Below, piece by piece: positions 18,626 through 32,497 of a DNA stretch of 51,584 nucleotides (position 1 is the first letter of the stretch; each line of letters begins with the position of its first letter). The position numbers and the translations under genes are program-made. The stretch covers positions 1 to 51,584 of the forward strand of contig JAFLTC010000013.1 of NCBI GenBank assembly GCA_022510615.1. The letters are read 5' to 3'. The notes under the pieces are model-generated. The model was given only the letters and a program-made list of their open reading frames with translations, made no database searches and was not told the DNA's origin. Source of the stretch: Lachnospiraceae bacterium (GTDB lineage Bacteria > Bacillota > Clostridia > Lachnospirales > Lachnospiraceae).

Positions 18626-18661
18626 AAGGCAGAATGTGAAAAAATATCGATGGAGGAAGCT

Positions 18662-19378
18662 ATGGTATTTGCAGCAGTACTGGCTGGAGGCAGTGGAAGC
18701 CGGATGGGAAACAAGGAAAAACCAAAGCAGTATCTGAATCTGGCAGGGACGCCGATTTTAATTCATACGCTGGAGAAATTTTATATTAATAATCATCTGG
18801 AAAAAATTCTTGTACTCTGTCCGGAAGAATGGCTGGAATATACAAAGGATTTGGTGAAAAAATATATTGGTAAGACCGATCGTGTTTTAGTAATTGAGGG
18901 CGGCTCTACCAGAAATGAGACGATTATGAATGCCATCTGCTGGCTGGAAGAGCAGTATGAGCTGACGGAGGAAGATATTATTGTCACTCACGACTCGGTT
19001 CGTCCCTTTGTGACATACCGGATTATTGAGGAAAATATAAAATTTGCGAAAAAGTACGGTGCCTGCGACACCGTGATACCGGCAACAGATACGATTGTGG
19101 AAAGTGAAGACAGGCAGAATATTTCAAATATTCCAAAGAGGAGTCGGATGTATCAGGGACAGACGCCCCAGACATTTCAGATTAAAAAGCTAAAACGCTT
19201 GTATGATGCGCTGTCGGAGAAAGAAAAGGAGCTCTTGACGGATGCGGCGAAAATATTTGTTGTTCAGGGCGAAAAGGTCTGTCTGGCAGAGGGAGAGGTA
19301 TCGAACATTAAAATAACCTATCCCTATGATTTGCGTGTGGCGGAGTCGTTAATTCAAACCGGACATTCAGAGGAGTAA
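18662..19378 (+). CDS. tarI: IspD/TarI family cytidylyltransferase, probably ribitol-5-phosphate cytidylyltransferase (copy 1)
   Basis: 238 residues. The ATG at 18662 is chosen over 18650: GGAGG lies 5 nt before it and the N-terminus then matches copy 2 at 21821. Forms a CDP-polyol from CTP. Seen: the nucleotide loop AAVLAGGSGSRMG followed by KPKQYL, and THDSVRPFVT, DTIVES, QGQTPQTF, LTDAAKIF and the final KITYPYDL. IspD of isoprenoid synthesis shares this fold, but the adjacent TarJ (6 bases downstream) points to ribitol-5-phosphate. CDP-ribitol feeds ribitol-phosphate polymers or LicD-type transferases. Confidence 0.88.
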   Translation: MVFAAVLAGGSGSRMGNKEKPKQYLNLAGTPILIHTLEKFYINNHLEKILVLCPEEWLEYTKDLVKKYIGKTDRVLVIEGGSTRNETIMNAICWLEEQYELTEEDIIVTHDSVRPFVTYRIIEENIKFAKKYGACDTVIPATDTIVESEDRQNISNIPKRSRMYQGQTPQTFQIKKLKRLYDALSEKEKELLTDAAKIFVVQGEKVCLAEGEVSNIKITYPYDLRVAESLIQTGHSEE

Positions 19379-19383
19379 AGGAT

Positions 19384-20409
19384 ATGCTTAATACCATTTA
19401 TCAGTTAGTGGCACCGAGAAGATTTGAAGTCATATATGGAAATATTGGATTGAATAGTAAAGATGTTTTGGTTCGCCCGACGCATCTTTCTATTTGTAAT
19501 GCCGACCAGAGATATTATCAGGGATTGCGGGAAGCGTCGGTATTGCAGAAAAAATTACCTATGGCACTCATTCATGAGGCAATCGGGGAAGTAATCCGAG
19601 ACCCGTCCGGCGAATTTAAACCGGGAGAGATTGTTGTTATGATTCCCAATACGCCAACAGAAGAGGATGAGTTTATAGCGGAAAATTATCGCCGTTCCAG
19701 TAAATTCCGTGCCAGTGGCTTTGACGGCTTTATGCAGGAATATGTCAATATCCGCAAAGATAGACTGGTGCGTCTGCCGGAAGGAATAGATCAGACAGTG
19801 GCAGCCTTTACAGAGATTGTCAGTGTAAGCGTCCATGCCATCGGGCGTTTTGATGCCATTGCCCATAAAAGAAGGAACACAGTAGGAATATGGGGGGATG
19901 GCAATCTGGGCTATATTACTGCTGTATTTTTTAAGACGATGTTTCCCGATACGGAATTATATATTTTTGGCATAAATCGGGACAAGCTGTCAGATTTTAC
20001 TTTTGCGGATGGCATTTATACTGTGGACCGGATTCCGGAGGATTTAAAACTGGATCATGCTTTTGAATGTGTAGGAGGAGCCGGATCGGGAAAGGCCATT
20101 GAGCAGATTATTGATGTGATTCAACCGGAGGGTACGATATCCATACTGGGAGTATCGGAGTATCCGGTGCCGGTCAATACGAGAATGGTATTGGAAAAAG
20201 GACTGCGTATCTTTGGCAGCAGCCGTAGCGGTCGGGCTGATTTTGAGAAAACGGTGGAGATATATCGGAAAAATCCGGAAATCATCAATTATTTATCAAA
20301 TATTGTTGGTACGGTAGTAACCATCAGAACAATAGATGATATGAAGAAAGCGTTTGAATTGGATATACAGAAGGCATTTGGTAAAACCATTATGATTTGG
20401 GAAAAGTAA
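19384..20409 (+). CDS. tarJ: Ribulose-5-phosphate reductase TarJ (MDR alcohol dehydrogenase family)
   Basis: 341 residues. Reduces D-ribulose-5-phosphate to D-ribitol-5-phosphate with NADPH, the step before TarI. Medium-chain dehydrogenase layout: catalytic domain with the zinc-ligand stretch HLSICNADQRYYQG and LIHEAIGEV, then a Rossmann fold with VGIWGDGNLGYITA and FECVGGAGSG. The C-terminal TISILGVSEYPVPVNTRMV follows. It is directly downstream of tarI. The structural zinc-lobe cysteines of classical alcohol dehydrogenases are missing, as in other TarJ/Bcs1-type reductases. Confidence 0.9.
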   Translation: MLNTIYQLVAPRRFEVIYGNIGLNSKDVLVRPTHLSICNADQRYYQGLREASVLQKKLPMALIHEAIGEVIRDPSGEFKPGEIVVMIPNTPTEEDEFIAENYRRSSKFRASGFDGFMQEYVNIRKDRLVRLPEGIDQTVAAFTEIVSVSVHAIGRFDAIAHKRRNTVGIWGDGNLGYITAVFFKTMFPDTELYIFGINRDKLSDFTFADGIYTVDRIPEDLKLDHAFECVGGAGSGKAIEQIIDVIQPEGTISILGVSEYPVPVNTRMVLEKGLRIFGSSRSGRADFEKTVEIYRKNPEIINYLSNIVGTVVTIRTIDDMKKAFELDIQKAFGKTIMIWEK

Positions 20410-21820: not shown

Positions 21821-22531
21821 ATGATTTTTGGAGTTGTTTTAGCGGGAGGAATCGGAAGCCGCATGGGAAATGTGGGAAAACCAAAGCAGTATCTCTTAGT
21901 GGGAGATAAGCCGATTCTCATTCATACACTGGAAAAATTTTATAAAGAAAAGGAATTTGAAAAGGTCATTGTTCTTTGTCCGAAGGAGTGGATTGCCCAC
22001 ACAAAAAATCTTGTAAAAAAATATATGGAAGATGCAGAGAGAGTTGTGGTTTTAGAAGGCGGAGAAACCAGAAACGAAACCATTATGAATTCCATTTCCT
22101 ATATTGAAGAAAATTATGGTCTGGCGGAAGATACCATTATCGTAACCCACGATTCCGTGCGTCCTTTTGTGACAGAACGTATTCTCAAGGAAAATATAAA
22201 ATATGCGAAAGAGTACGGAGCCTGTGATACCGCAGTAGCGGCAACGGATACCATTGTATGCAGTGATGATAATGTTATGATCAGTGATATTCCGGAACGA
22301 AGAAAAATGTATCAGGGTCAGACTCCTCAGAGTTTTCAGGCACTGAAACTGAAAAACCTGTATGATTCCCTGACCGAGGAAGAAAAAAATCTTCTGACCG
22401 ATGCGGCGAAGATTTTTGTGATGAAGGGAGAAAAGGTGCATATTGTAGATGGGGAAGTATTTAATATCAAGATTACATACCCCTATGACCTGCGGGTAGC
22501 AGAGGCGTTTTTACTGGAATCCGGGCAGTAG
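21821..22531 (+). CDS. tarI: IspD/TarI family cytidylyltransferase (copy 2)
   Basis: 236 residues, closely similar along its whole length to copy 1 at 18662 (same GSRMG loop, KPKQYL, THDSVRPFVT, QGQTPQ.F, LTDAAKIF, KITYPYDLRVAE). A GGAGGG site lies 9 nt upstream. The two copies flank tarJ and a GT2 gene in one operon. It may be a redundant CDP-ribitol synthase, the true IspD, or an enzyme for another polyol phosphate; the sequence does not decide. The stop codon lies inside the loop of the terminator at 22518-22543. Confidence 0.85.
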   Translation: MIFGVVLAGGIGSRMGNVGKPKQYLLVGDKPILIHTLEKFYKEKEFEKVIVLCPKEWIAHTKNLVKKYMEDAERVVVLEGGETRNETIMNSISYIEENYGLAEDTIIVTHDSVRPFVTERILKENIKYAKEYGACDTAVAATDTIVCSDDNVMISDIPERRKMYQGQTPQSFQALKLKNLYDSLTEEEKNLLTDAAKIFVMKGEKVHIVDGEVFNIKITYPYDLRVAEAFLLESGQ

Positions 22532-22549: not shown

Positions 22550-23056
22550 TTACCAGTCCACAAAATTTTCTACATCCAGTCGGTCTTCTAAAATCATATC
22601 CACGGCTTCCCGTACCGGCGACTCTCCGGCGCGTCTTGTCAGGATAATATCCACATATGGTTTTATTTGTTTTGTACAGTCAGCCGGGGCAAAGGTAATG
22701 CCGGCGTTGCGCATGGCGCTTAAATCATTTAAGTCATCACCGATATAGGCGGTTTCTTCTTTGGAGAGCTGATATTGTTTCATCAGCTCTTTCATTTTTG
22801 TGCCTTTATCTTTTACTCCCTGATAGACTTCGGTAATGCCGATTTCTTTGCACCGGTTTGTGACAATTTGTGAAGTTCTCCCGGTAATAATGACCGGTAT
22901 AATATCATGTTTCATGAGAAGCTTGATGCCAAGGCCGTCTTTCGGGTCAAAGGCTTTCATTACCTCGCCGGCATCTCCGATATATATTTTCCCATCTGTC
23001 AGCGTGCCATCCACATCCATGGCAAAGAGACGGATTTTCTTTAAATCTTTACTCAT
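22550..23056 (-). CDS. KdsC-like HAD phosphatase (3-deoxy-ulosonate-8-phosphate phosphatase family)
   Basis: 168 residues, the capless HAD type C0 length of KdsC. Removes phosphate from Kdo-8-phosphate or a related acyl-ulosonate phosphate. Seen: nucleophile motif MDVDGTLTDG (Asp 14 and 16), ITGRTSQIV (57-65), Lys 84 region KDKGTKM, and metal motif GDDLNDL (106-112), then ESPVREAVDMIL as in KdsC. GGAGG is 5 nt before the ATG, and the start overlaps the stop of the aldolase gene by 8 bases, so it is coupled to it. It is the last gene of the minus-strand ulosonate operon. It could also act in a non-Kdo nonulosonate route. Confidence 0.88.
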   Translation of the reverse strand: MSKDLKKIRLFAMDVDGTLTDGKIYIGDAGEVMKAFDPKDGLGIKLLMKHDIIPVIITGRTSQIVTNRCKEIGITEVYQGVKDKGTKMKELMKQYQLSKEETAYIGDDLNDLSAMRNAGITFAPADCTKQIKPYVDIILTRRAGESPVREAVDMILEDRLDVENFVDW

Positions 23057-24677
23057 TTTCTCCTCCGTTCACAATCGAGTCAAATAGAGACGGTGTAATA
23101 AAGGTAACCGAGCAGCGTGATGTTCTTGTGTTCATGTAGTCTTCCAGCATACTGGAAATATCCTGGTTTGCCTCCTCGGCGTTCAGGGTATTTCGCTGCT
23201 TTTCCATATCCTGTTGTACATAGTTTTGCTGACCGGAGTGATGACTGTAACCGTCAAAACCGGCGATGGCAATGCTTCCTACCTCCAGCAAGTCTAACAG
23301 GCGGAGAAGAAGAATGCCGGAGTTATCTAACTGCTCCCAGCCACATTTGATCAACCGGGTAAAGTCTACCACAAACTGATCTTTTTGTATCTCTGTCGTC
23401 ACATTGGAAGTAACAATTTTTTTGTACTCCTTAAAATGGGTGGCACTCTTCCAGTAACGGTACCGGTTTTTGTTGCTGAAATAGGCATAATTAATCGGAT
23501 AGTCATGAGAGAGAAGATTCACACTGATGACAACCGGCTGTTTTTCCAGACAATACGTATCAATTACATTTTTATGAGTAACAATGGAATGTCCCGGCAG
23601 TAACATCAGAATATCCTTTCCTGATAAAAGATCCTTCAAGCGGTCTATCTGTTCGTCATCGTTGCAGATGGAGCCGAGATAATCCATATATATCTTTTCC
23701 AGTAGGTCATAGTCGTAACGCTTTCTGTCCATGGAGCCAAGACGGTTTAACAAATAATTAATATCCCGGCTGGCAATACCCGCTTTTGTGGAAAGATAGG
23801 AAATATTGTTCACATGGGCGCTGTAGGAGCCTGCCAGAAAATAGGGAATGGAATATCCCCATTCCGACTGGCTGCGAAAGCCGTCCACATAGTTGTCAAT
23901 TAAGTCTAACAGGCTATCGATATCATAGCCGCTGTTATGCTTGCGGTTCATATACTGCATCACCAGCTCGGTATTGGTATTCCCGGCACCTCGTCCCATA
24001 CCTGCCATTGCCGTATCAATGACAATACGGCGAAGTCCCTGGGTCATTTCCACAAATTCCTGGGAAAGAGCAAAGGACATCTGTAAATTATTGTGGGAGT
24101 GGAAACCAATTCTGGCACTGGCGCACAGATTGTGATGAATCAGGAAAAATACCCGCTGCAAATCCTCCTTATACATGGAACCGAAAGTATCCACAATGGA
24201 AAAGGCATAGGGCTCTAACTCATTTACCATATCAATGAGTTCCAAAAGTTCGGTGTCTGTGTATCCCAGAATATCTACCGGCTGCACATAGAGCTTATAG
24301 CCCCGTTCTGTAATGCCGCGGCAAAAGTCCATGACTTTATAGCGTTCTTCCTTAAAAAAGCAGGCCCTGACACCGTCAATGGAGGTGCCGTCAAAGGGCT
24401 CTAAATGATCAATGGTATAGCGGCTGTAATCCGCAAGGCAGACATAGGAGGCATTCTTTCTGTCCTCAGGAAGATAGCCTCGAATCTGGGAGGCATTATT
24501 AAAAACGGTGCTGCCGTTTTTATGTGGCTCATCCTTTAAAAAACCGCATTCGATAACATCTACGCCACTTTCTGTCAGTCCGCGGAGTATACCTTTGATA
24601 GCTGTATTACCAAACTGGCTGTCCACTAGATAACCGCCATCCCGCAAGGTACAGTCCAGTATATTCACTCGTTTCAT
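23049..24677 (-). CDS. DRE-TIM (HMGL-like) aldolase fused to a DUF115-like C-terminal domain
   Basis: 542 residues from the ATG at 24677; GGAGG 5 nt upstream decides it over the ATG at 24689. Residues 1-280 form a DRE-TIM barrel: DCTLRDGGYLVDS (8-20), metal-ligand HSHNN (193-197), and DTAMAGMGRGAGNTNTE. The closest known type is 4-hydroxy-2-oxovalerate aldolase (DmpG), which splits or forms a bond with pyruvate. Residues about 353-542 are a second domain starting GKDILMLLPGHSIV, with VVISVNLLS and IAIAGFDGYSHH, similar in layout to DUF115/MptE-like domains of surface glycosylation. It lies between kdsB and the KdsC-like phosphatase. Making the C-C bond of an ulosonic acid from pyruvate is inference from family and context. 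Confidence 0.8.
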   Translation of the reverse strand: MKRVNILDCTLRDGGYLVDSQFGNTAIKGILRGLTESGVDVIECGFLKDEPHKNGSTVFNNASQIRGYLPEDRKNASYVCLADYSRYTIDHLEPFDGTSIDGVRACFFKEERYKVMDFCRGITERGYKLYVQPVDILGYTDTELLELIDMVNELEPYAFSIVDTFGSMYKEDLQRVFFLIHHNLCASARIGFHSHNNLQMSFALSQEFVEMTQGLRRIVIDTAMAGMGRGAGNTNTELVMQYMNRKHNSGYDIDSLLDLIDNYVDGFRSQSEWGYSIPYFLAGSYSAHVNNISYLSTKAGIASRDINYLLNRLGSMDRKRYDYDLLEKIYMDYLGSICNDDEQIDRLKDLLSGKDILMLLPGHSIVTHKNVIDTYCLEKQPVVISVNLLSHDYPINYAYFSNKNRYRYWKSATHFKEYKKIVTSNVTTEIQKDQFVVDFTRLIKCGWEQLDNSGILLLRLLDLLEVGSIAIAGFDGYSHHSGQQNYVQQDMEKQRNTLNAEEANQDISSMLEDYMNTRTSRCSVTFITPSLFDSIVNGGENE

Positions 24678-24701
24678 ATGTTCCTCCATTCTTAACCGAA
24701 T

Positions 24702-25445
24702 CTATGAGTCCAGAGTTTCCTCTCCTCTGAGAACCCGTTCCACCCGTTCCACATGCTCCGGTAAATCTACTCCGATGGAGGTGTACGGGGTTTCCTTTAA
24801 ACGCATTTTATATCCTTTTTGCATCGCTCGCAAAGGTTCAATGCCTTCCCCTAACTCTAACTCCGACTGAGGCATTTTGGTAAATTCCAGAAGAAAGTCC
24901 CTTTTATAAGCATAAATTCCTACGTGTCGAAAGACTCTTGCCAGTTTTCCGTCCTTTAAATTTGAGGGAATAACCGAGCGGGAGAAATACATAGCATCGC
25001 CCTTGTCATCCGTAACTACTTTGACAGTACTGGTGGCGCGGATTTCTTCCGGGTCAGTAATTTCCTTTTTCAGACTTCCAAAGTAAACGGAATCATCCTC
25101 CAGAAAAATGGAAATAACCTGACGAATCATTTCCGGATTAATAACCGGTTCATCTCCCTGAACATTGACAAATAAATCACCCTCCACCTTAGCAGCTACT
25201 TCCGCCACCCGGTCGGAGCCGGTTTCATGCTTATCTGAGGTCATTATAACCTTCATATCATATTCCATGCAGGCAGCCTGAATGCGCTCGTCATCCGTAG
25301 CCACATACACGGTATCAAATTCACTTACCTTTTCTGCCTGTTTATATACCCAGTATATCATTGGTTTTCCACAAATGGATACCAATGGTTTCCCCGGAAA
25401 ACGACTGGATTTATAACGGGCAGGAATTACACCGATAATTTTCAT
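24702..25445 (-). CDS. kdsB: CMP-3-deoxy-ulosonate cytidylyltransferase (KdsB family)
   Basis: 247 residues, full KdsB length. Activates Kdo, or a Kdo-like acid, with CTP to CMP-sugar. Seen: IPARYKSSRFPGKPL at 7-21, TDDERI, SDKHETGSDRVAEVA, NVQGDEPVINP, and late IGVDLPEHVERVE, all KdsB hallmarks rather than NeuA ones. GGAGG is 4 nt before the ATG. It is in an operon with the aldolase and phosphatase. Kdo is a lipopolysaccharide sugar, so a KdsB in a Gram-positive genome is unusual and implies a capsule or wall polymer containing such an acid. No kdsA or kdsD is in the window. Confidence 0.92.
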   Translation of the reverse strand: MKIIGVIPARYKSSRFPGKPLVSICGKPMIYWVYKQAEKVSEFDTVYVATDDERIQAACMEYDMKVIMTSDKHETGSDRVAEVAAKVEGDLFVNVQGDEPVINPEMIRQVISIFLEDDSVYFGSLKKEITDPEEIRATSTVKVVTDDKGDAMYFSRSVIPSNLKDGKLARVFRHVGIYAYKRDFLLEFTKMPQSELELGEGIEPLRAMQKGYKMRLKETPYTSIGVDLPEHVERVERVLRGEETLDS

Positions 25446-25455
25446 AATTCCTCCA

Positions 25456-26703
25456 TTAGTTTTTGTTATTTACGATATCTTCCAGTTTAACTCTTGGGAA
25501 GAGTTCCAGATTTCCTCCTCGTGTCGCATTATAGATACGAATGCCGTGTTTGGCGGCGTATTTGTTTATGAGAGAATATACCTCCATAGAACGGTCGATA
25601 ATATGCGAGCCGATCTGCGCTGTAGTCAGAGTTTGGGCATTCATACGAGCCTTAATTCGGTTGATATCTGTTTCCGCCACTTCCTTGGTCGTATAGCTAT
25701 CGGTAAAATGACCGCCCTTGTCGTGCGGGTTGGTACAGTCTACACCAAGCAGATAAATCTCTCGAAAGCCCATGTGAAACGCCATTTCCGCAGCCAGAGA
25801 TAACACCGTGGCCTTAACCATGCAGTAGGACTGGATATTTCCCTTTACCCGGTAGCGCTCACTCTGTATCGTGTGTACGTAGGTGGTATCTACCGGTTTT
25901 TTTTTCATTCTCCGGTAAGTGCGCTCGGTTGTAAATAAAGGGGCCTTTACCATATCTGACAGCTCAGAGCCCAGTTTAGAGGCGTAGATTGTATCGGATA
26001 CACAGTGGAACGTAGGACGCCAGTCTGTTTTATCAAATATTTTATATACCATGTTCGTTCCAAAGGTGTATTCATCCTTGAGAAGATGAAGGTCTTCCCC
26101 GGTAAGGCTTGGCCCGTTTCCGATTAAAAAACAACGCTCTCCCTTATGGATATCCCTCAGTCGTTCCAGACGGAGACTGTTATTATTGTGAAACATGCCA
26201 TGAGAACGGAAAAAGCCGAGAAGGTTATAACTGCACATCAGATAAACCAGCCGGACACGGTTTAGTGTTTTCCGCGTATAGCGGATGAGTTTCTCGGAAA
26301 CCGGACGTCTATGGGGTTCGGTGGAAAAATTAGTTTCCACAATCGTTTCTACCTTCATATCGGACTCCGCTTTTATCAGACACTGGCTTCCGGCGGGACG
26401 AAGGTGGTTTTCGGTATCGCTTTGCACCCAGTAGCGGGCGGCGGCATAATATTTGAAATACTCTGGCGTATCCTTTCGCACAAGAAAGGTATGGTGATTC
26501 GCCAGAAGATGTTTAAAATCCTCCGGTACAGAAAAAGCCCATACAAAATAAAAGGAACGGTAGTTTTCGTCATCCAGTAATTTTTCATAGACAGCACGAA
26601 CACCGCCCGTATAATCCGTTCCGTTTTGGGCTTCAAAAATAATCGTATGGTCATCCACTGCGGTGATGTGCCGGTAGCGGAAGTAGCGCAATCGGTTCTT
26701 CAT
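25456..26703 (-). CDS. Chimeric protein: TagB/TagF N-terminal-like domain plus DUF115 (MptE-like) domain
   Basis: 415 residues from the ATG at 26703, which has AGAAAGGA upstream; the longer frame to 26730 would begin at TTG with no site. Residues about 12-105 resemble the N-terminal Rossmann half of CDP-glycerol glycerophosphotransferases (IIFEAQNGTDYTGGVRAVYE, FYFVWAFSVPEDF, KYYAAARYWVQSD), but the catalytic WHG motif and the CDP-binding half are missing. Residues about 185-395 form a DUF115 domain: CFLIGNGPSL, FGTNMVYKIF, FHCVSD, and YLLGVDCTNPHDKGGHF. DUF115 domains occur in Maf-type nonulosonate transferases and other surface glycosyltransferases. Next to kdsB, it is a good candidate to use the CMP-ulosonate. 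This role is inferred. Confidence 0.75.
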   Translation of the reverse strand: MKNRLRYFRYRHITAVDDHTIIFEAQNGTDYTGGVRAVYEKLLDDENYRSFYFVWAFSVPEDFKHLLANHHTFLVRKDTPEYFKYYAAARYWVQSDTENHLRPAGSQCLIKAESDMKVETIVETNFSTEPHRRPVSEKLIRYTRKTLNRVRLVYLMCSYNLLGFFRSHGMFHNNNSLRLERLRDIHKGERCFLIGNGPSLTGEDLHLLKDEYTFGTNMVYKIFDKTDWRPTFHCVSDTIYASKLGSELSDMVKAPLFTTERTYRRMKKKPVDTTYVHTIQSERYRVKGNIQSYCMVKATVLSLAAEMAFHMGFREIYLLGVDCTNPHDKGGHFTDSYTTKEVAETDINRIKARMNAQTLTTAQIGSHIIDRSMEVYSLINKYAAKHGIRIYNATRGGNLELFPRVKLEDIVNNKN

Positions 26704-27323: not shown

Positions 27324-27352
27324 TTGACAAAGAGACCGGCTTCATGTATATT
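27324..27352 (+). promoter_or_regulatory. Promoter of the split GtrB-like glycosyltransferase gene
   Basis: A perfect TTGACA at 27324-27329 and TATATT at 27347-27352 with a 17-base spacer. The start codon at 27395 follows an AGGAGGGG site. An in-frame ATG at 27344 lies inside the promoter and is not used. Confidence 0.75.
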
Positions 27353-27394
27353 TATTTCGGATTGTTGTGCATTGTAAATAGAACAGGAGGGGCT

Positions 27395-27919
27395 ATGGAA
27401 AATAGCAAGATACTATATATGGTAATTCCCTGCTACAATGAGGAAGAAGTATTAGTCGAAACTACCAGACGGCTGGTGCCGAAAATTCATTCTTTGATGG
27501 AACAGGGAAAAATCAGTGAAAAAAGCCGTATTCTATATGTCAATGACGGCTCAAAGGACCAGACATGGCCGATTATTGCAAGGCTGCATGAAGAATATGA
27601 CTGTGTCAGTGGCTTAAATTTGTCCAGAAACCGGGGACACCAGAACGCGGTGCTGGCAGGATTGATGTATGTGAAGGACCATTGTGACGCCGCCATATCC
27701 ATGGATGCAGACCTGCAGGATGATATCAATGCCATTGATGAGATGGTGGATAAGTTTAATCAGGGAATTGATGTGGTGTATGGTGTTCGGAGCAGCCGTA
27801 AAAAGGATACCTTCTTTAAAAAATTTACCGCCGAGGGATTTTATAAAATAATGAAGTCGGTAATCCGCATGGTTGAATACAATATCCACGCCCATCCACT
27901 TCATTATTTTATAAAATAA
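27395..27919 (+). CDS. GtrB/DPM1-like GT2 glycosyltransferase, N-terminal fragment (gene broken by a palindromic insertion)
   Basis: ATG at 27395 with AGGAGG 6 nt upstream. Residues 1-154 are a normal polyprenyl-phosphate glycosyltransferase catalytic domain: YMVIPCYNEEEVLVETTRR, LYVNDGSKDQTW, LSRNRGHQNAVLAGL and DADLQDD with the metal-binding DAD. After ...FYKIMK (27856) the frame enters a 68-bp inverted copy of downstream sequence. It encodes about 20 alien residues and stops at 27917-27919. The expected continuation (WMGVDIVFNHADYRL...) begins at 27925 in another frame. Removing the 68 bases would restore a single 320-residue protein, the normal GtrB length. So this is either a real recent null mutation or an assembly error. 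Confidence 0.85.
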   Translation: MENSKILYMVIPCYNEEEVLVETTRRLVPKIHSLMEQGKISEKSRILYVNDGSKDQTWPIIARLHEEYDCVSGLNLSRNRGHQNAVLAGLMYVKDHCDAAISMDADLQDDINAIDEMVDKFNQGIDVVYGVRSSRKKDTFFKKFTAEGFYKIMKSVIRMVEYNIHAHPLHYFIK

Positions 27920-27965
27920 TGAAGTGGATGGGCGTGGATATTGTATTCAACCATGCGGATTACCG
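27858..27965. repeat. Perfect 108-bp palindrome (54-bp arms, no spacer) inside a glycosyltransferase gene
   Basis: Bases 27858-27911 are the exact reverse complement of 27912-27965, centred on TTTTATAAAA (27907-27916). The 18-base string at 27839-27856 recurs at 27907-27924, 68 bases later, so the event is a 68-bp insertion made of reverse-complemented downstream gene sequence. The right arm is native coding sequence; the left arm is the copy. 68 is not a multiple of three, so the frame is lost. Confidence 0.97.
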
Positions 27966-28425
27966 CCTGATGAGTAAGCGGGTGTTACAGCAGATGGAAC
28001 ACTATAAAGAGGTCAATCTGTTTTTGCGGGGCATGGTGCCGTTAATCGGCTATCCTTCCGACAATGTTTATTATGAGAGAAAGGAGCGGTTTGCCGGAGA
28101 GAGCAAATATCCGCTGAAAAAAATGTTGTCCTTTGCCTTTGACGGAATTACCTCCTTCAGTGTAAAGCCGATTCGGTTTATTTTATCACTGGGAATGTTG
28201 ATTTTCCTGGTCAGTGTGGGGATTCTCATTTATTCGATTGTCCGTTATTGTCTGGGTGCTACTGTTCTTGGATGGAGCAGCCTTATGGTGTCAATCTGGG
28301 CACTGGGAGGCCTGCAGCTCTTTGCCATTGGTCTGATAGGCGAATACATCGGAAAAATGTATCTGGAAACAAAGGCACGGCCGCGGTTTGCTATTCAGGA
28401 TGTGTTAGATGATGTGGAAAAATAA
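27919..28425 (+). CDS. GtrB/DPM1-like GT2 glycosyltransferase, C-terminal fragment
   Basis: 168 residues. Continues the broken glycosyltransferase: MKWMGVDIVFNHADYRLMSK, VNLFLRGMVPLIGYPS, YERKERFAGESKYPLKKML (the conserved R..G.SKY.L motif before the membrane part), then two C-terminal membrane spans (about 88-112 and 121-147) and the tail GEYIGKMYLETKARPRF. On its own it lacks the nucleotide-sugar binding half. Its ATG shares two bases with the stop of the N-terminal fragment (TAATG at 27917-27921), so re-initiation could make both halves, although no ribosome site precedes it. Confidence 0.85.
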   Translation: MKWMGVDIVFNHADYRLMSKRVLQQMEHYKEVNLFLRGMVPLIGYPSDNVYYERKERFAGESKYPLKKMLSFAFDGITSFSVKPIRFILSLGMLIFLVSVGILIYSIVRYCLGATVLGWSSLMVSIWALGGLQLFAIGLIGEYIGKMYLETKARPRFAIQDVLDDVEK

Positions 28426-29687: not shown

Positions 29688-30734
29688 ATGAAGGTGTCCT
29701 TGTGTGTTGTGGCATATAACGAAGAGGAGCGGCTGCCTGCCCTGCTGCAGGATATAGCCGGACAGACCTACCCAAAAGAAAAAATAGAGGTACTACTGAT
29801 TGATGGCGGTTCAGAGGATGGGACGAAACAGCAGATGGAGCAGTTTGCCGGGGAACATAGGGAGGAATATAACGGCATTCAGGTACTGGATAATCCGGGG
29901 AAAATTCTAAGCTGCGGTTGGAATGTGGCACTGGTTCATTTTACCGGGGATGCCATTTTACGTGTGGATGCCCACAGCCATATTCCGGCGGATTTTGTGG
30001 AGAAAAATGTAGAGAATTTACAGACCGGTGAGATGGTGTCCGGTGGGGCAAGACCTGTCGTCTGTGAAAAGGAGGACGGTTGGTCAAAAACCCTCCTGCT
30101 GGCGGAGGAATCCCTCTTTGGCAGCAGTATTTCTTCCTTCCGAAGGCAGGAAGAGCGCGCTTATGTGACCTCTCTTTTTCACGGTGCCTACCGCAGAGAG
30201 GTGTTTGAGGAAGTGGGGGGATTTCGGGAGGATTTGGGAAGAACGGAAGATAACGAGATGCACTACCGGATTCGACAGAAGGGATACCGGCTCTGTATGT
30301 CACCGGATATCCGTTCCTACCAGTACATTCGCCCGACACTTAAGAAAATGTGCCGCCAGAAGTATGGAAATGGATACTGGATTGGATTGACGGCAGGAGT
30401 GTGCCCGGGCTGTCTTTCCCTGTACTATTTTGTTCCATGGGCATTTGTGGGTGGGATTGCTCTCACTACCATAGCGGCACTATTTGGCTTGTACTGGCCG
30501 GCTCTTTTGATGTGGGGGGCTTATCTGCTGCTTGCTGTTGTCATGGCAGTATGTTCCGTGCGGGGAGAGAAAAAAAGTCTTTTTCAGCTGTTACTGCCGG
30601 TTTTGTTTTTCCTCTTACATATCAGCTATGGAGTCGGAACGTGGATAGGACTTGTAAAAATGCCGTTCTGGCGGCGTACACACCGAACCTGTCCATCGGT
30701 AGAACGGGTAAAGGAGCAGATGAAACATGGATGA
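29688..30734 (+). CDS. GT2 glycosyltransferase with C-terminal membrane spans (ExoM/succinoglycan type)
   Basis: 348 residues. GT-A domain 1-235: VSLCVVAYNEEERLPALLQD, VLLIDGGSEDGTKQQME, RVDAHSHIPADF (DAH in the metal position, as in the succinoglycan glycosyltransferase subgroup), GGFREDLGRTEDNEMHYRIR acceptor motif. Three C-terminal membrane spans (about 240-325) hold it at the membrane. First gene of a five-gene operon for surface polymer assembly; its last 8 bases overlap the first LicD gene. Sugar specificity cannot be read from sequence. Confidence 0.9.
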   Translation: MKVSLCVVAYNEEERLPALLQDIAGQTYPKEKIEVLLIDGGSEDGTKQQMEQFAGEHREEYNGIQVLDNPGKILSCGWNVALVHFTGDAILRVDAHSHIPADFVEKNVENLQTGEMVSGGARPVVCEKEDGWSKTLLLAEESLFGSSISSFRRQEERAYVTSLFHGAYRREVFEEVGGFREDLGRTEDNEMHYRIRQKGYRLCMSPDIRSYQYIRPTLKKMCRQKYGNGYWIGLTAGVCPGCLSLYYFVPWAFVGGIALTTIAALFGLYWPALLMWGAYLLLAVVMAVCSVRGEKKSLFQLLLPVLFFLLHISYGVGTWIGLVKMPFWRRTHRTCPSVERVKEQMKHG

Positions 30735-31641
30735 AAAACGGCATGAGTACACGAGAGAACAGTTAAAAAAGTTACAGGAAACGAACCTTTCCATGGCGGT
30801 GCTGTTTTTTCGATTTTGTAAAGAAAATCATCTCACCGCCTATTTGTGCGGAGGTGGTTGTATCGGTGCCATTCGGCATAAGGGGTTCATTCCATGGGAT
30901 GACGATTTAGATTTCTTTATGCCAAGGGAAGACTATGAAATTTTTCTTGAAAAATGGAAGGATTATAAGTCGGGGGGAGAGCTGGCATTGTCAGTGTCGG
31001 ATAAGGAATCTATAGATCACAATCTTTTTGCCACTCTGCGTCATAAAAAGACTACCTGCATCAAGCCGTATCAGAAAAATCTGGATTTGGTGCATGGGGT
31101 TCCTCTTGACATACTTCCTCTCGATGGCTATCCGGATTCTAAGTGGCAGAGAAAAAAACAGTGTTTCTGGGCACTGATTTATTCTCTGTTTTGTGCCCAG
31201 ACAGTACCGGAAAACCACGGGAAGCTGATGGCTTTTGGCAGCCGGCTTTTATTGGGGGTTTTTCGTGGGAAGAAGTTTCGTTACCGGATTTGGTCGCTGG
31301 CAAAAAGGAAGATGACAAAATATCGGATTCAGGATTGCAAAGGGATTACAGAGCTCTGCTCCGGTCCCGGTTATATGAAGAACCGGTATGATAAGGAGTG
31401 GTTTTCTTCTTATCTTGAAGTGCCTTTTGAGAATCAGGTGTTGCCGATTCCCGTTGGGTATGATGCCTATTTGCGAAAGGTCTTTGGCGACTATACAAAG
31501 CTGCCGCCGAAAGAAAAACAACAGACGCCCCACGACTGTATTTTTGTGGACTTAGATACCCCTTATACTGCCTATAAAGGCATTTACTATCTGACAGGGA
31601 AAGAGAGGGAGAAAGAGGATGGAACAGACACCGGCAGTTGA
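30727..31641 (+). CDS. LicD family phosphotransferase (copy 1)
   Basis: 304 residues. LicD proteins transfer a phospho-group from a CDP-linked donor (phosphocholine in pneumococcus; ribitol phosphate in the FKTN/FKRP relatives) to a sugar. Seen: YLCGGGCIGAIRHKGFIPWD with DDDLDFFMPREDYE directly after it, the nucleotidyltransferase-fold metal site, then LDILPLDGYP and the final LPIPVGYDAYLRKVFGDY. Start ATG overlaps the previous stop by 8 bases; the end overlaps copy 2 by 23 bases. No licABC choline genes are in the window, whereas tarIJ and tagD are, so a polyol phosphate donor is plausible. Confidence 0.9.
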   Translation: MDEKRHEYTREQLKKLQETNLSMAVLFFRFCKENHLTAYLCGGGCIGAIRHKGFIPWDDDLDFFMPREDYEIFLEKWKDYKSGGELALSVSDKESIDHNLFATLRHKKTTCIKPYQKNLDLVHGVPLDILPLDGYPDSKWQRKKQCFWALIYSLFCAQTVPENHGKLMAFGSRLLLGVFRGKKFRYRIWSLAKRKMTKYRIQDCKGITELCSGPGYMKNRYDKEWFSSYLEVPFENQVLPIPVGYDAYLRKVFGDYTKLPPKEKQQTPHDCIFVDLDTPYTAYKGIYYLTGKEREKEDGTDTGS

Positions 31642-32497
31642 CCTGGAAAAATTGCAGAAAAAATGCCTGGAAATCACGCTGGTATTCAAGGATTTCTGTG
31701 AAAAACACGGGCTTTCCTTTTATTTATGCGGAGGGGGCTGTATCGGTGCCATCCGCCATAAAGGATTTATTCCCTGGGATGATGATATTGACGTATTTAT
31801 GCCGAGGGAGGATTATGAAGCACTGTGCCGCCTCTGGGGGCAGGAGATGAACCAGAAAAAATACCGTCTCAGTCGTTCGGACGGGGACCACTTTGAACGC
31901 TCCCAGCTCACTGCCATTACGGATGAAGAAACTACCTTTATCAAAGAACGTCAGATGGATTTATCCGTGGCACATGGCGTCCGGCTGGAGGTACTTCCCT
32001 TAGATGGCTGTCCGTCGGGAAGATGGAAACGGAAAATGCAGCTTCTGTGGGGGTTGGTGTATCAGATTTATATAAATCAGGAAGCCCCTACCAGTAAGGG
32101 AAAGCTTTTAGAGTTAATCGGTCGGGGAATGCTCTTTTTCGTGCCGGGGTGGAAACGCCGATACAAGGTAGCACGGCTGGCAGAAAAGAAAATGTCCCGT
32201 TATCCGATTTCCGAATGTGATTATGTCACAGAGCTCTGTGTGCGCTACAATTATATGGTCAACGAATATCCAAAGGAAATTTTTGCCTCGGCGGTCTATA
32301 AGGAGTTTGAGGGAGTTTTACTCCCCCTTCCGGTAGGGTATGATACCTATCTGCGGATGGCCTTTGGCGATTATGAAAAGCTGCCGCCGAAAGAAAAACA
32401 GGTTCCTTCCCATGATGGAATCTGTATTGACTTAGAGCATGGATATGAGACTTACCGGGGCGTATATTATCCGAAAGAGAGAAAAAATCATGAGTGA
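31619..32497 (+). CDS. LicD family phosphotransferase (copy 2)
   Basis: 292 residues, colinear with copy 1 across its full length (YLCGGGCIGAIRHKGFIPWD, DDDIDVFMPREDYE, LEVLPLDGCP, LPLPVGYDTYLRMAFGDY), so the pair arose by tandem duplication. The catalytic Asp residues are kept in both, which suggests both are active, perhaps on different acceptors. The start at 31619 lies inside copy 1 and has a purine-rich GAGGGAG site; the end overlaps the next glycosyltransferase by 8 bases. The donor is not known; CDP-ribitol or CDP-glycerol could be made by genes in this window. Confidence 0.9.
   Translation: MEQTPAVDLEKLQKKCLEITLVFKDFCEKHGLSFYLCGGGCIGAIRHKGFIPWDDDIDVFMPREDYEALCRLWGQEMNQKKYRLSRSDGDHFERSQLTAITDEETTFIKERQMDLSVAHGVRLEVLPLDGCPSGRWKRKMQLLWGLVYQIYINQEAPTSKGKLLELIGRGMLFFVPGWKRRYKVARLAEKKMSRYPISECDYVTELCVRYNYMVNEYPKEIFASAVYKEFEGVLLPLPVGYDTYLRMAFGDYEKLPPKEKQVPSHDGICIDLEHGYETYRGVYYPKERKNHE

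Follow-up and report, generated by a model that had tools for sequence, protein, structure and literature searches.

We analysed the 51,584-nucleotide contig JAFLTC010000013.1 of a Lachnospiraceae bacterium (assembly GCA_022510615.1), hereafter the window, and find on its minus strand, between positions 22550 and 26703, a four-gene operon that, judged by comparative analysis of sequences, probably makes and activates a 3-deoxy-2-ulosonic acid and transfers it to a cell-surface polymer with ribitol phosphate as a further constituent. Ulosonic acids activated with cytidine monophosphate (CMP), that is 3-deoxy-D-manno-octulosonic acid (Kdo), sialic acids and related sugars, are generally held to come from phosphoenolpyruvate (PEP)-using synthases of the KdsA or NeuB kind. 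A first, sequence-only reading of the window had placed an aldolase in the slot of these synthases, and this placement is strongly supported by (i) the pairing of the aldolase with cytidylyltransferase genes, (ii) its KdsC-type neighbours, (iii) a fusion of an aldolase with a KdsC-type domain and (iv) parallel operons that contain KdsA.

The operon begins with a 415-amino-acid (aa) DUF115 (MptE-like/Maf-type) transferase with a partial TagF-like N-terminus (25456..26703, ATG at 26703), followed by a 247-aa KdsB-type CMP-ulosonate synthetase (24702..25445), a two-domain aldolase (23049..24677, alternative ATG at 24689) and a 168-aa KdsC-type HAD phosphatase (22550..23056). All four lie on the minus strand with their families above the profile cut-offs, and the packing is as tight as first described: the aldolase and phosphatase genes overlap by 8 bp, 10 bases separate the DUF115 and KdsB-type genes, and the gap between the KdsB-type gene and the aldolase is 12 bases from start 24689, the value originally given, or 24 bases from start 24677. 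The near-consensus promoter that had also been claimed is present as a promoter-like site (TTGACT-17-TATAGT, 26771-26743, minus strand, 10/12 consensus matches) 39 bases upstream of the DUF115 start codon, but it is weak evidence, because the region holds 17 such sites and shuffled sequences a mean of 12.9 (standard deviation 3.2). Since the same gene order recurs in a 99% complete genome of the same genus (G108) and at the named loci L072, L073 and L075, the four-gene operon is not a chance arrangement. Locus L074 stops after the aldolase, and L076 is a short contig without the DUF115 gene.

The KdsB-type enzyme exceeds the equivalog cut-off for KdsB (TIGR00466, 188.8 bits; cut-off 155.2), and among solved structures it is closest to CMP-Kdo synthetases (best Protein Data Bank match 1gq9, E 4.4e-58). 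The phosphatase belongs to the subfamily TIGR01670 (162.6 bits; cut-off 106.95), has KdsC structures as best matches (2r8e, E 1.5e-33) and scores below both the KdsC equivalog NF007019 (156.5 of 208 bits) and NF058599, the model for the 9-phosphatase of 2-keto-3-deoxynononic acid (KDN; 119 of 180 bits). The DUF115 protein matches PF01973 (43.7 bits; cut-off 34.6) and is predicted to adopt a CstII-like fold, so that it resembles Maf/CstII plus part of TagF; the TagF domain PF04464 is incomplete in it (profile positions 3-87 of 367), and a 706-aa relative at L074 covers positions 11-364. A published study reports that a clostridial Maf uses CMP-Kdo and that PF01973, the domain of Maf proteins, is similar to CstII (PMC11339370). 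The fusion to a partial TagF-like piece sets the window protein apart from Maf flagellin glycosyltransferases and GT42 sialyltransferases, and suggests a polyol-phosphate polymer, rather than flagellin, as the likelier acceptor.

The aldolase is a member of the DRE-TIM (HMGL-like) superfamily (PF00682, 72.1 bits; cut-off 29) with a DxTLRD and an HxH metal motif, and D8, R12, D13, H193 and H195 are invariant in 71 of 71 aligned aldolases. Its modelled structure contains a DRE-TIM barrel (about residues 1-336, 23670..24677) whose nearest relatives are oxovalerate aldolases and 3dxi, the putative aldolase BVU_2661 of Bacteroides vulgatus, which corresponds to the N-terminal domain alone. We know of no function for BVU_2661, and a literature search by locus name and Protein Data Bank code gave only unrelated papers among the matches listed. 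The window aldolase differs from the 4-hydroxy-2-oxovalerate aldolases DmpG/BphI in scoring far below their equivalog TIGR03217 (77 bits; cut-off 286), in a Tyr that replaces a His, in its DUF115-like tail and in its polysaccharide context.

This tail, on which the sequence-only reading was silent, is a second domain (about residues 337-542, 23049..23669) that is distantly DUF115/MptE-like: hhalign aligns it to the operon's own DUF115 domain family over 181 columns (E 5.2e-5, probability 67). In a Pfam scan of 58 members PF01973 is the commonest weak match of the domain (8 members, best E 3.8e-4), and the window aldolase's own domain gave no PF01973 match, even a weak one. The domain may bind a cytidine nucleotide or the CMP-sugar. 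The aldol step itself can probably proceed without it, because a 345-aa homologue that lacks it (G347) keeps an operon with KdsC and KdsB. Other architectures occur as well. Short aldolase homologues are frequent in the family, and the window's own genome has one (L032 12490-13467 on contig C13, 325 aa, 27% identity), which lies opposite purine genes with AIRS and GARS domains and adjoins no recognised sugar gene; L152 (6119-8359, 746 aa) fuses the aldolase domain to a LicD domain.

We determined how consistently the aldolase travels with CMP-sugar genes in a named genome collection, where more than 500 loci were confirmed and the best 80 kept; the latter represent the closest relatives, not a random sample. 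They contain 77 aldolase open reading frames (ORFs) longer than 400 aa, and their neighbours, in stretches of up to 8 kb on each side, were labelled by phmmer with our own query sequences. A KdsB- or PseF-type gene lies directly upstream of the aldolase in 49/77 and within three genes in 53/77, against a background of 5/805 other ORFs in the same loci with such a cytidylyltransferase directly upstream, and the median gap between cytidylyltransferase and aldolase is 1 base. A KdsC-type gene is found within three genes in 26/77 and a HAD_2 phosphatase within two in 7/77. KdsA or NeuB was labelled within eight genes on the same strand in 0/77. The 53 linked loci are distributed over Bacillota (45), Bacteroidota (3), Campylobacterota, Synergistota and Melainabacteria (1 each), and two carry no phylum label. 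The L127 aldolase is extended by a KdsC-type domain at residues 588-739 (E 2.5e-37).

The co-occurrence survey that had been suggested points the same way within the family. An aldolase homologue, fused or short, is present at E 1e-20 in 161 of 397 family genomes, and 40 of the better-scoring carriers of the fused aldolase were set against 40 genomes without the fused form. True KdsB, defined by scores above 130 bits (the next score is 48), occurs in 21/40 and 0/40 genomes, respectively (Fisher p 2.6e-8, only a guide because the genomes are related and the best-scoring fusions were chosen). The distance from the KdsB gene to the aldolase is no more than 7 kb in 20 of the 21 genomes and no more than 300 bp in 16 of these; in the remaining genome (G116) KdsB sits beside KdsA and KdsD, and the aldolase belongs to the thiamine diphosphate (ThDP) group described below. 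KdsC-type genes above cut-off in the 80 genomes lie, in 24 of 24 cases, within 1.7 kb of an aldolase (18), KdsA (2) or NeuB (4), and three further ones just under the cut-off adjoin NeuB. Six genes next to aldolases that lack a KdsC-type gene, selected for their length of 209-224 aa, all encode HAD_2 phosphatases; one of the six belongs to the ThDP group.

The absence of kdsA, kdsD and neuB that had been reported is true of the window, and for the first two it extends to the 2.1-Mb assembly of which the window is one contig (G000, 88% complete): KdsA (TIGR01362) and KdsD (TIGR00393) gave no match at E 0.001, so that no such set was found that would account for KdsB. In G108, KdsA likewise gave no match at E 0.001 and KdsD only 20.8 bits. 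For neuB the statement fails outside the window, as one NeuB-family gene, the only NeuB match, is present on contig C42 of the same genome. The single PF00793 match in G000 was rejected as KdsA and is read from its sequence as 3-deoxy-D-arabino-heptulosonate-7-phosphate synthase.

Across the 397 family genomes KdsA exceeds its cut-off in 9 and KdsD in 10; seven of the KdsD genes lie beside KdsA, one follows a cytidylyltransferase and an aldolase (G153) and two adjoin genes of about 1,010 aa. At L180 (6732-10764) a KdsD-type gene adjoins an FKP-like gene as tested with Pfam, and L178 and L179 hold similar pairs; these suggest arabinose-5-phosphate that feeds a route to guanosine diphosphate (GDP)-arabinose. 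The family also contains parallel KdsA modules: L055 has PseF-like, KdsA, KdsD, KdsC and DUF115 genes in a row, L057 has DUF115, KdsC, a PseF-like gene and KdsA, and L054 is another such module. By gene content, the window operon is the same kind of module as L055 and L057, with the aldolase as the enzyme that forms the C–C bond and without KdsD.

The polymer to which the sugar would be attached is indicated by the genes around the operon. Those that converge with the operon would supply a precursor of the cytidine diphosphate (CDP)-ribitol type. A TarI-type D-ribitol-5-phosphate cytidylyltransferase (21821..22531, plus strand; NF001183, 366.4 bits, cut-off 166) converges with it, and a second TarI (18650-19378, plus strand, 369.3 bits) is followed on the plus strand by a zinc alcohol dehydrogenase (19384-20409, ADH_N and ADH_zinc_N), which we take to be TarJ-like from the tarI-tarJ pairing, no profile model having given that name. 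Relatives of TarI and of 19384-20409 also adjoin the operon in L073, L075 and L076. Together with the TagF-like part of the transferase, these neighbours support the earlier idea of a teichoic-acid-type polymer. Elsewhere in the window, a gene that by eye resembles glycosyltransferase family 2 is split in the ORF list into 27344-27919 and 27919-28425 (27344-28425), as by a frameshift, and two LicD-like genes adjoin at 30727-32497 (30727-31641 and 31619-32497), the product of the first matching by phmmer the part of the L152 fusion that Pfam calls LicD.

In the pathway that we favour, the DRE-TIM aldolase would add a metal-stabilised pyruvate enolate to a phosphorylated aldehyde from central metabolism to give a 3-deoxy-ulosonate phosphate; pyruvate as donor and an aldehyde phosphate as acceptor are the most likely substrates. 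The KdsC-type phosphatase would then strip the phosphate and pull the reversible aldol step forward, the KdsB-type enzyme would form the CMP-sugar, and the DUF115 protein, from its Maf/CstII-like fold, its TagF-like piece and its neighbours, would transfer the sugar to a teichoic-acid-like acceptor. The absence of KdsD makes arabinose-5-phosphate, and with it Kdo itself, less likely in this operon; an acceptor drawn from central metabolism and a different ulosonic acid as product fit better.

A special case of this pathway is that the aldolase makes Kdo proper, condensing arabinose-5-phosphate with pyruvate to Kdo-8-phosphate, which would then pass through textbook KdsC and KdsB steps. The score of the KdsB-type enzyme above the kdsB equivalog cut-off is in its favour, as is a row of three genes in G153 (L158 6574-9363), namely a PseF-like cytidylyltransferase, an aldolase that lacks the C-terminal domain and a full-length KdsD, in that order; the genome gave no KdsA at E 1e-50. 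This row shows at the level of gene order that KdsD is able to join an aldolase operon. We nevertheless consider Kdo proper unlikely here. The window genome has no KdsD match, the phosphatase remains under its equivalog cut-off, and KdsD exceeds its cut-off in only 1/21 KdsB-bearing genomes (G116, KdsA adjoining). In 29 genomes searched for KdsD only G022 and G116 have one above cut-off, with KdsA adjoining in both; the others give partial or weak matches of at most 120 bits, and the partial matches, found in some KdsB-bearing genomes, are of sugar-isomerase type. The aldolase might instead use another nucleophile (hydroxypyruvate, 2-oxobutyrate) or a nucleotide-activated acceptor, for example a cytidine-activated sugar held by the DUF115-like domain. 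Both contexts of the aldolase family involve cytidine nucleotides, and the C-terminal domain, present in both, is distantly like a CMP-sugar-using fold; the adjoining phosphatases and the L127 fusion, however, indicate that a free sugar acid, still phosphorylated, precedes the activated form, and the G347 homologue without the domain retains its KdsC and KdsB, which makes this scheme improbable as well. Finally, KdsB and KdsC could act on an acid supplied by the NeuB on C42, with an aldolase that is catabolic or serves another sugar. That NeuB-family gene (367.1 bits to NeuB_NnaB, cut-off 399.65) lies beside an AraD-type epimerase with no labelled cytidylyltransferase in the 20 kb around it, but the conserved pairing of aldolase and cytidylyltransferase, the lack of a labelled NeuB near the aldolase in all 77 loci, and a PseF-type enzyme on contig C53 (156.7 of 205.7 bits) that could serve NeuB leave this explanation very improbable. 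At L052 (9539-12010) a NeuB-family gene adjoins an unassigned 249-aa gene and an AraD-type epimerase, and no cytidylyltransferase is labelled nearby.

Several observations weigh against the pathway that we favour. The genome holds a NeuB of its own, on C42. In 4-hydroxy-2-oxovalerate aldolases an acid/base catalytic His follows DxTLRDG; the aligned position is Tyr16 in the window aldolase and Tyr in 64 and Arg in 7 of the 71 aligned sequences, so that the chemistry may differ. A labelled cytidylyltransferase is missing within three genes in 24/77 loci and a labelled phosphatase nearby in 44/77, the L127 fusion is a single case on a 5.5-kb contig, and most loci outside Bacillota come from metagenome bins as single contigs, which may have been misbinned. 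In G153, which lies outside the 80 compared genomes, the sole KdsC-type gene is near neither an aldolase nor KdsA or NeuB within the 20 kb inspected. Moreover, the aldolase family is not dedicated to CMP-ulosonates, because 18/71 rows of its tree carry a label for ThDP/CDP-hexose clusters, one of which (L077) also has KdsB directly upstream.

The tree of 71 aldolases, built by a quick method with support from the SH-like approximate likelihood ratio test only, places this sub-clade, which the sequence-only reading had also not mentioned, as one derived group: 17 of its 19 rows are ThDP/RfbF-G-H loci, and one further such row, L077, lies outside it. Representatives that we tested carry RfbF-, RfbG- and RfbH-type genes, as do routes to C-branched CDP-hexoses. 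Both contexts, CMP-ulosonates and CDP-hexoses, appear from their gene content to involve cytidine nucleotides. Linkage to some cytidylyltransferase or to ThDP requires 2 changes on the tree, against 14 for the KdsB label and 11 for the PseF label (at least 9 and at least 7 on well-supported branches alone); the pairing with a cytidylyltransferase therefore looks old, with a partner that was seemingly exchanged often. Within the ThDP group, L041 (8788-9855) has a 3-dehydroquinate-synthase-like gene (Pfam) beside its aldolase, and L046 (10317-12690) has an FGGY-kinase-like gene, as tested, and a 354-aa gene that clusters with the 3-dehydroquinate-synthase-like gene of L041; these two loci represent a different sugar or cyclitol context.

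Compared with the Kdo pathway KdsD-KdsA-KdsC-KdsB, the operon has an equivalog-level KdsB, a KdsC-subfamily phosphatase and the same logic of forming, dephosphorylating and CMP-activating the acid, but it lacks KdsA and KdsD and has a DRE-TIM aldolase with an extra domain as its C–C bond enzyme. With the NeuB pathways to KDN and other nonulosonates it would share a CMP-activated ulosonate and does share a KdsC-type phosphatase, which in four loci of the 80 compared genomes lies beside the synthase; it differs in that NeuB, which uses PEP, was not labelled near the aldolase. A kdsB in a Gram-positive bacterium is not new, as a Kdo island with kdsB and kdsC has been described in Bacillus coahuilensis m2-6, and this island differs from the window operon in having kdsA and kdsD (PMC4744853). 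The aldolase version of a Gram-positive kdsB pathway appears to be new: the titles and abstract openings of the matches listed, subscription papers lying outside this search, held no such aldolase in a CMP-ulosonate pathway.

A broader proposal, for which we see about even chances, is that the aldolase represents a third class of ulosonate synthase, one that needs no PEP and does not share the KdsA/NeuB fold, and supplies CMP-activated sugar acids for surface polymers in at least five phyla; that its DUF115-like domain binds the cytidine nucleotide product; and that a derived branch has been redeployed for C-branched CDP-hexoses together with an acetolactate-synthase-like ThDP enzyme. If the aldolase does the work of the PEP-using synthases, the key step in the formation of CMP-activated ulosonic acids has another chemistry, widespread within one large family of gut Firmicutes, and the annotation of many loci as catabolic aldolases or Gram-negative Kdo genes would have to be revisited. 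Ulosonic acids would then also be expected in the wall polymers of Gram-positive bacteria.

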